Below, piece after piece: positions 33,455 to 57,119 of a stretch of 64,000 nucleotides of DNA. Below the pieces are notes generated by a model. It saw nothing but the letters and a program-made list of their open reading frames with translations, made no database searches and was not told the origin of the DNA. Location of the stretch: NCBI GenBank assembly GCA_021208645.1, contig JAJOJL010000050.1, forward strand, positions 1 to 64,000, read 5' to 3'. Within the stretch, counting starts at the first letter, position 1. Each line of letters opens with the position of its first letter. This DNA is from Bacillus sp. (in: firmicutes). Its GTDB lineage: Bacteria > Bacillota > Bacilli > Bacillales > Salisediminibacteriaceae. The translations under genes were made by a program, and so were the position numbers.

Positions 33455-33500
33455 CTGTACTCTCACCTCCTTTAATAGGTTTAGGTTTGTCCTAGGGTCT

Positions 33501-33640
33501 GATCCAAAATCTCCGTTTCTAAGATTTTGGATCAAAGCCTATGCAATGAGCGTAGCGTCCGCAATTTTTTTAAGAGCTGACAGGAGAGGGTTTCTCCTGT
33601 CAACGAGGCGCGAGGGAAGCCATTGCCATAGTACTTCAAA
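33501..33640 (+). repeat. Dispersed double-hairpin element, copy A
   Basis: GATCCAAAATCT/AGATTTTGGATC; TGACAGGAGA-gggt-TCTCCTGTCA; linkers gcaatgagcgtag.. and gaagccattgc. Confidence 0.75.
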
Positions 33641-33872
33641 CAAGCTCTTCTAAATAAGTATATATATCATCGTTTATTAGATGGGAATTGTCAAAGAATA
33701 TTTTATTCCAGTTACTATGCATCCTAGCCAATAGTGTGAACAACATATACTTGATATGCAAAAATCTCTTTTTTCACAATCTTCACCATAGTTTTGTGCC
33801 CTTATGGGTAGTTTGTGGATTGCCTACTCTGAGTCTTTCTGACAAGATGAAAACTCATGTATTTTTCTTAAA

Positions 33873-39855: not shown

Positions 39856-39886
39856 GTAATAGAAGAAACGAAGATTTCTAACATGG

Positions 39887-39923
39887 AAAGCCTGATAGGA
39901 TATTCCCTCCTATCAGGCTTTTT
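39887..39923 (+). terminator. Terminator after gerQ
   Basis: AAAGCCTGATAGG-atattccc-TCCTATCAGGCTTTTT. Confidence 0.85.
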
Positions 39924-39952
39924 CAATTCCTTTTACGCGTCATTTACTCCAT

Positions 39953-45850: not shown

Positions 45851-45894
45851 AAAGTATTTAAAAATTGTTTATAGTGAGTGTTCTAATAGTATGC

Positions 45895-46027
45895 TAGCAA
45901 CGGCTTCGCTCGTCGCTCGCTGACAGGAGAAACCCACTCCTGTCCACCCTTAAAAGATTGCAACGGCTTCGCTCATTGCTTCGAGTCTGTTAAAAAAGGC
46001 AAAGAACGACTTTTTTTCAACTGACTC
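45895..46027 (-). repeat. Dispersed double-hairpin element, copy B (also acts as terminator-like stem for the downstream-ending AKR gene)
   Basis: Minus strand: GAGTCaGTTgAAAAAAAG.../CTTTTTTTAACAGACTC; gcaatgagcgaagccgttgcaatctttt; GACAGGAG-tgggttt-CTCCTGTC; gacgagcgaagccgttgc. Confidence 0.75.
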
Positions 46028-46849
46028 TTACACAAAAGTATCTGGATCTGGTCCTGTTCGGTGATTTTCATTTAAGCTGGAGATTCTCGCCATATCAGCT
46101 TCGGAAAGTTCAAAGTCATAAATGTCCATATTAGCTTCAATTCGCGCTGGCGTTATTGACTTTGGGATGGTTACCACATCGTTTTGCAAATCCCAGCGCA
46201 GGATGATTTGTGCAGGAGTTTTCCCGTATTTTTCACTAAGCTCAACGAGGATTGGATTGTCAAAAACTCGTCCCCGCACTAACGGTGCCCACGCTTCCAA
46301 TTGAATCCCTTTCGCCTTGCAGTAAGTATGTAACTCTTCTTGGGTAAGGAGGGGGTGATATTCCACTTGATTGACGGCAGGAACTACCTTGGCATCCTTT
46401 AACAATTCTTCTAAGTGATGAATTTGAAAGTTACTGACACCAATGGCACGCACCTTGCCCTGGGCATACAACTCCTCCAATGCACGCCACGTCTCTTTGA
46501 ATTTCCCTGTCACAGGCCAATGAATCAGATACAAGTCGATAATATCTAACCCTAGTTTCCCCCTACTTTCTTCAAATGCCTTTAACGTTTCTTCATAACC
46601 TTGTTGATCATTCCAAACCTTAGTGGTTACAAAAATCTCTTCCCGTGGTATACCAGATTCACGGATTCCTTCTCCCACGCCTACTTCATTTTCATAGAAA
46701 GAAGCTGTGTCAATACTGCGATAACCTGCCTGCAACGCAGTCACCACCGCACTTTTCACTTCGCCCCCCTCTTTTACCTTATATACGCCAAGCCCTAGCC
46801 ATGGCATTTTTACACCATTATTTAATGTTATTGTAGATTGAATATTCAT
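46028..46849 (-). CDS. Aldo/keto reductase
   Basis: MPWLGLGVYKVKEGGEV, GYRSIDTASFYENE, LDIIDLYLIHWPV, IGVSNFQIHHLEEL. Confidence 0.95.
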   Translation of the reverse strand: MNIQSTITLNNGVKMPWLGLGVYKVKEGGEVKSAVVTALQAGYRSIDTASFYENEVGVGEGIRESGIPREEIFVTTKVWNDQQGYEETLKAFEESRGKLGLDIIDLYLIHWPVTGKFKETWRALEELYAQGKVRAIGVSNFQIHHLEELLKDAKVVPAVNQVEYHPLLTQEELHTYCKAKGIQLEAWAPLVRGRVFDNPILVELSEKYGKTPAQIILRWDLQNDVVTIPKSITPARIEANMDIYDFELSEADMARISSLNENHRTGPDPDTFV

Positions 46850-56676: not shown

Positions 56677-56711
56677 AAAGTGAATTTATGAGTGTTTAGG
56701 AGGTACTGATG

Positions 56712-56862
56712 ACCGAGGGCGCTGAAAAAGTGGTGTTTTTCCACTTTTTCAGTCCCTCTAAGCAATGCGCGAAGCCGTTGCAATCTTTTGAAAGCCTACT
56801 ATGAGTGGGTTTTTCATAGTAGGCGCGCAACGAGCGGAGCCATTGCATTTTAACTTTTCCAG
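56712..56862 (+). repeat. Dispersed double-hairpin element, copy C
   Basis: CTGAAAAAGTGG-tgttttt-CCACTTTTTCAG; gcaatgcgcgaagccgttgcaatctttt; GCCTACTATGA-gtgggtttt-TCATAGTAGGC; acgagcggagccattgc. Confidence 0.8.
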
Positions 56863-57119
56863 TTTATTTGCTGTCTCCTGATGACCTGCACCTCATTTTT
56901 TGTTGGATTTGTGAGACTGAGAAAGGTGGGTTTAACTGGATAGAAGCCGGATTTTGTTAAATAACAGATGGTTTTAAGGTAAAAGAGAGCTTTTATGGGT
57001 TTTTGATGCTAGATTAGCAAGCAGAATTGAGGTTTTGGTATCAAGATGTAGGTATTTGCGGTGAAAAAAAGGGAAAATAGTGGTAATTAATTTCCATTTT
57101 AAGCTATATTGAGCTTGAT

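Follow-up and report, generated by a model that had tools for sequence, protein, structure and literature searches.

A repeat family of Bacillus-like bacteria best filed as IS1182-associated MITEs, with a left end that folds back and a conserved hairpin core

Three related elements in the window, the 64,000-nucleotide stretch of Bacillus sp. DNA analysed here, belong to a large dispersed family, read as MITEs from its ends and flanks and most likely mobilised by IS1182-type transposases. The class that suits it best is an IS1182-associated MITE family in which the left end folds back on itself and the hairpin core is conserved. To the fuller reading, in which the palindromes are of IS1182-type MITE origin and are then kept self-complementary at the DNA level by template switching, we assign a probability of roughly three in four. 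The genome containing the window (a 3.95 Mb draft) carries about 100 copies, taken as stretches around half-site matches, with those too decayed for the pattern left out. With up to two mismatches allowed, the half-site GCRAYGNGCGNAGCCRTTGC has 205 matches genome-wide and its reversed-pattern control 1; in the window the 20-nt half-site is matched 4 times against 0.01 expected.

Anatomy of the element and its copies in the window

The element is ∼150–165 bp long and has no transposase gene inside. It begins with a hairpin, P1, the 5′ arm of which is the left end of the element, continues into a single long hairpin, H2, mostly of 83–85 nt, and finishes with a right end, which repeats the left one imperfectly in inverted orientation. 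The base of H2 is made of two blocks, one formed by GCAATG-N-GC paired to GC-CATTGC and the other by GC-C-GTYGC paired to GCRAC-G-N-GC; the blocks are separated by a 3x3 internal loop, and each has one bulged base. These strands had been described, in a reading of the sequence alone, as constant linkers. Repeated segments do exist there, but they pair together as the H2 base and covary like the other stems, and the linkers as quoted are exact in the middle copy only, copy 1 having GCAATGAGCGTAGCGTCCGCAATTTTTT and GGCGCGAGGGAAGCCATTGC. An alternative model in which each linker folds on itself as a mini-hairpin via GCGAAGC was rejected, as it gives 0 double changes, whereas the pairing between the linkers covaries.

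The three copies are recovered by the H2 covariance model with E values from 1e-19 to 2e-27, the 79 cores of the model including them. The loci proposed earlier are therefore real, but the elements are longer than the limits first given: ∼33495–33647, 45876–46027 (minus strand) and 56715–56877. Copy 3, on the plus strand, is bounded by target-site duplications. Its left terminal repeat GAGGGCGCTGAAAAAGTGG folds back on an inner inverted copy to form P1 (56715–56758). H2 follows at 56762–56846 (covariance model 97.7 bits, together with fold and covariation), with base strands at 56762–56781 and 56827–56846 and cap arms at 56794–56804 and 56814–56824. The right end (56847–56877) contains the right terminal repeat finishing in GCTGTCTC, its limit being set by the adjoining duplication: the 9-mer CTGATGACC, read directly at 56706–56714, recurs identically at 56878–56886.

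The ends of the other two copies are set by homology, and both copies belong near the largest subgroup, A (ends GAGTCTGTTCAAAAAG). Copy 2 (45876–46027, minus) has P1 at ∼45981–46027, H2 at 45897–45979 and a right end finishing in GAACACTC, with no clear duplication at its flanks; it starts immediately past the stop codon of a gene for an aldo/keto reductase (46028–46849, minus). As single-stranded DNA it preferentially folds each linker singly, and as RNA it forms the long hairpin. Copy 1 (33495–33647, plus) is degenerate, with P1 at ∼33495–33541, H2 at 33543–33626 and a right end finishing in CAAACAAGCTC; its flanks, TCCTA and TTCTA, match weakly, at 4 of 5 positions. Elsewhere in the window, at 39870–39950 (minus), the model has a weak match (16 bits, E = 0.04) to a hairpin GCCTGATAGGAG...CCTATCAGGC, the arms of which are the H2 cap arms of one subgroup without the base strands. 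It is either a remnant or an ordinary terminator.

Covariation and the pattern of mismatches

Covariation between the arms of a stem is usually taken as proof of a functional RNA. We extracted 85 cores with flanks from the genome and added further copies from relatives. Among the 79 distinct H2 cores, 95.9% of cells are paired compared with 86.9% after shuffling, and 166 cells are double-changed compared with 47, although these are not counts of events, as related copies are not independent. The pairing signal vanishes when the partner is slid by 1–3 columns. Compensated variants of the H2 base include GTCGC/GCGAC, GTTGC/GCAAC, GTCAC/GTGAC, GATGC/GCATC, ACAATG/CATTGT and GTAATG/CATTAC. A covariance model search, proposed with the sequence-only reading as a check on it, found further copies, some in other genera, and the stems covary. 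The strong covariation with maintained pairing that it had reported in a dispersed family is thus borne out. Its description of the arms as unrelated and perfectly paired holds in part: compensation is strong and copy-specific, but copies 1 and 2 have the same cap stem (GACAGGAG/CTCCTGTC), and copy 2 has an imperfect P1. Family intermediates (TGACAGGA - TGATAGGA/TGATATGA - TACTATGA) connect the cap stem of copies 1 and 2 with that of copy 3, so that the two are diverged and not unrelated.

The mismatches that remain are evenly divided. G·T and A·C number 34 and 31 in H2 and 20 and 22 in P1, modest counts from copies that are not all independent. Constraint at the RNA level is expected to spare G·U. 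The symmetry therefore fits palindromes held at the DNA level or decaying from perfection, and nothing in the mismatch pattern favours selection on RNA.

Compensation is family-wide in H2 and copy-specific within P1. In the main subgroup, a P1 arm scores 14.2 against its own partner, across a short loop, and 6.8 against those of other copies, its own being the best in 20 of 28. The left end scores 5.6 against its own right end, ∼130 nt away, and 5.3 against others, with no copy-specific match. Since the P1 arms covary with each other and not with the distant right end, we infer local homogenisation by template switching between DNA strands, a described route to making and restoring perfect stems (PMC8794818). 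At the locus behind etfA, which is orthologous in two relatives of one genus (g13; G149 and G040), a P1 pair shows a compensated difference, and the loop difference is also found in the neighbouring repeat. The switching is read from sequence patterns of this kind and not from observed events. Covariation by itself does not establish the earlier view that the fold is what is maintained, as switching from arm to arm yields the same pattern. The stems look “replaceable” because the terminal repeats differ among subgroups and genera and the P1 arms are copy-specific partners.

Two other accounts of these palindromes have been weighed against MITE origin with template switching. A structured RNA, or a terminator or mRNA stabiliser, would have its stems held by selection on the RNA fold. 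This would explain the strong covariation, the very stable RNA fold of copy 3 (z −8.7) and the bias toward gene 3′ ends: by a simple reading-frame call, 25 sites are convergent and 7 divergent, and many copies start within ∼10 bases of a stop codon. However, G·U is not favoured among the mismatches, copy 3 folds into the same structure on either strand, whether as DNA or as RNA, and terminal repeats with duplications are marks of a transposable element. P1 has no following T run, a scan of copy 3 gives one weak terminator-like site only, and Rfam has no match anywhere in the window. The structured ncRNA suggested earlier is consequently improbable. A REP/REPIN-type element moved by a RAYT, a Y1 single-strand transposase, is far less probable again, although the family is palindromic, intergenic and high in copy number and one copy lies directly behind a RAYT-like Y1_Tnp reading frame (L057:1042-1683, contig C112). 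We judge that frame a chance neighbour because 26 Y1_Tnp loci in 7 genomes show no trend: 4 clear H2 matches and 1 weak one fall within 1.5 kb and have no constant position, and the 4 are not clearly above the few expected from the density of the family. The REP-like nature proposed from the sequence is thus not supported, there being no consistent link to Y1 transposases, and target duplications at both ends indicate a DDE transposase. The GTAG/CGTC tag was not found in the element sequences read.

Target-site duplications and IS1182-type ends

The terminal repeats are of the type GAG(N4-7)(C/G)AAAAAG. They form inverted repeats, GAG...AAAAAG / CTTTTT...CTC, in subgroups C and D, are degenerate for many members of the largest subgroup and vary by subgroup and genus as the ends of IS1182 elements do (GAGGGTGTCCCAAAAG, GAGACTGTCGATTAAC, GAGGCCACTGAAAAAG). 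Of 17 copies whose ends are still recognisable, 11 have exact flanking direct repeats of 7–11 bp, compared with 3 of 272 mismatched pairings, which served as the control for a loosened pattern chosen after the sequences had been seen. A free search had preceded this, then a pattern that proved too strict and covered 3 elements only. For the largest subgroup the duplication is short or indistinct.

A complete IS1182-family element resides in the same genome (L181:135-2009, contig C4; PF13751 and PF05598; NF033551, E = 4e-112). The left end of this IS, GGGACCTGTGAAAAAGT, matches the right end, GGAACCTGTGAAAAAGT, of the subgroup D elements, and the duplication GGACGGTTC flanks both the IS and an element of the family (L145). 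In a congener (G022), an IS1182-family element encoding 493 aa (L192, duplication GAAAAGCAA) has the same first 26 bases as that genome's own elements. On account of the duplications and the matching ends, we read the family as MITEs that would be cross-mobilised through ends shared with IS1182-family elements. These IS elements do not contain H2. Against the reading stands subgroup A, for which no IS with ends GAGTCTGTTCAAAAAG was found in the draft genome and the duplication is short or indistinct.

Taken as a sequence of steps, IS1182-type transposition would have spread the elements into gene-end and intergenic sites. After insertion, template switching between closely spaced arms during replication would re-match each palindrome, such that the arms drift in sequence yet remain paired, and some copies may secondarily terminate the preceding gene.

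The resident IS (L181) lies inside a palindrome, GAAGCAAGGGGACGGTTC/GGACGGTTCCC.TGCTTC, the same type of target as for L145 and for a further IS (L193, genome G020). Insertion into host palindromes is clear for L143, L145 and the IS elements L181 and L180, but was rejected as a rule, with only 4 of 18 elements above the 95% null level. A second, longer repeat of ∼380 bp (L159:736-1115, L160, L161 and L162), which has ends GAGTCTGTTCAAAACA and contains an internal stretch CTTTCCGCGGG...CCTCAGCCTCCTCGG, is possibly another MITE with related ends.

Distribution, known relatives and meaning

Within the order, the H2 covariance model has matches in 16 of 291 genomes, which belong to 8 of 114 genera; among genomes sampled from the class it matches 4 of 397. 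Unusually, distant genera share the H2 core beneath differing terminal repeats, and tandem arrays follow gene-specific hairpins. In genus g13 (G149 and G040) and in G010, P1 differs at each locus and occupies the position expected of a terminator; a direct repeat of its 3′ half follows H2, often in tandem arrays. The arrays L239-L251 of G149 and G040 lie directly behind stop codons and have a unit of ∼113–127 bp, made of H2 and the 3′ half of the gene-specific hairpin; array copies share loop changes within a species. In a third species of the genus (G084), the etfA locus carries no clean H2 empty site, but a solo fold-back hairpin GAAAGCGCTGAAAAAGTTAGTTTAACTTTTTCAGCGCTCTC (L261), flanked by TGATTTTT repeats and inside a CAGGT...ACCTG palindrome. 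It is apparently a P1 without H2, moving alone.

These locus-specific P1 sequences and arrays speak against a plain MITE, and both old MITEs with decayed ends that were duplicated in tandem and an independently spreading H2 are possible for the g13/G010 form. The broader version of the second idea, that H2 is an old palindromic DNA module which moves or duplicates independently of any one transposase and docks behind many kinds of hairpin, while template switching during replication continually rewrites the arms of the neighbouring hairpin to match one another and the local sequence, we regard as unlikely. A narrower version, in which H2 spreads or duplicates independently and docks behind hairpins or terminators already in place, the IS1182-like ends being incidental, is less likely than that, and only slightly more probable than selection on an RNA fold. 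It draws on the conservation of H2 in 8 of the 114 genera beneath unrelated P1 sequences, on the gene-specific P1 and direct repeat that flank H2 in G149, G040 and G010, and on the IS1182 elements being without H2. Nevertheless, in the genome of the window the unit inside the target-site duplications includes P1 and both ends, the arrays are explicable by tandem duplication of an old MITE with decayed ends, and the single orthologous locus examined, etfA, gave no clean empty site.

As MITEs, the elements resemble those described in bacteria (PMC3049150, PMC10969869) in being short, gene-less and high in copy number, with terminal inverted repeats, target-site duplication, strong secondary structure and ends in common with resident IS elements, the partners being L181 for subgroup D and L192 for the G022 elements, with none found for subgroup A. 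They are unlike other MITEs in that the left end is doubled as a fold-back hairpin, a separate H2 core stays conserved from genus to genus under changing terminal repeats, and the arms are compensated copy by copy. With IS1182-family elements they share ends GAG...AAAAAG and 8–9 bp duplications, and matching IS elements reside in this genome (L181) and a congener (L192), but those encode a transposase and have no H2. The bcr1–bcr3 repeats of the Bacillus cereus group (PMC6542083, PMC3446304) are likewise high-copy, MITE-like elements of ∼150 bp with conserved structure in Bacillales; compared by description only, they differ in that their descriptions centre on a TTTAT motif and in belonging to a different host group. 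REP, BIME and REPIN sequences (PMC3733652, PMC3116915) are also palindromic and lie chiefly downstream of genes, where the neighbouring genes are convergent or in tandem. However, REPs are 20–40 bp long, have a GTAG or CGTC tag and are linked to RAYTs (PMC3733652, PMC3116915), whereas the elements here are ∼160 bp long, with terminal repeats and duplications and no RAYT link. The pneumococcal BOX, RUP and SPRITE repeats (PMC3049150) are structured, intergenic, partly terminator-like and near gene 3′ ends, and Bhal-1 of Bacillus halodurans (PMC2267715) is a stem-loop family of 74 bp and 36 copies, similar in size to H2; these belong to other hosts and were also compared by description only. Plasmid and phage collections have no match to the element.

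The analysis ties this high-copy repeat of Bacillus-like bacteria, for which we found no published description, to IS1182-type transposases. Should H2 be such an independent module beside arms rewritten by template switching, nature would have kept, across a whole genome, a record of compensatory change that owes nothing to selection on RNA. As a large family within one genome, the repeat presents textbook covariation in a transposable DNA element, with G·T equal to A·C and compensation confined to close arms. The family could provide controls for RNA discovery based on covariation, and a natural setting in which to measure template switching between the arms of palindromes.
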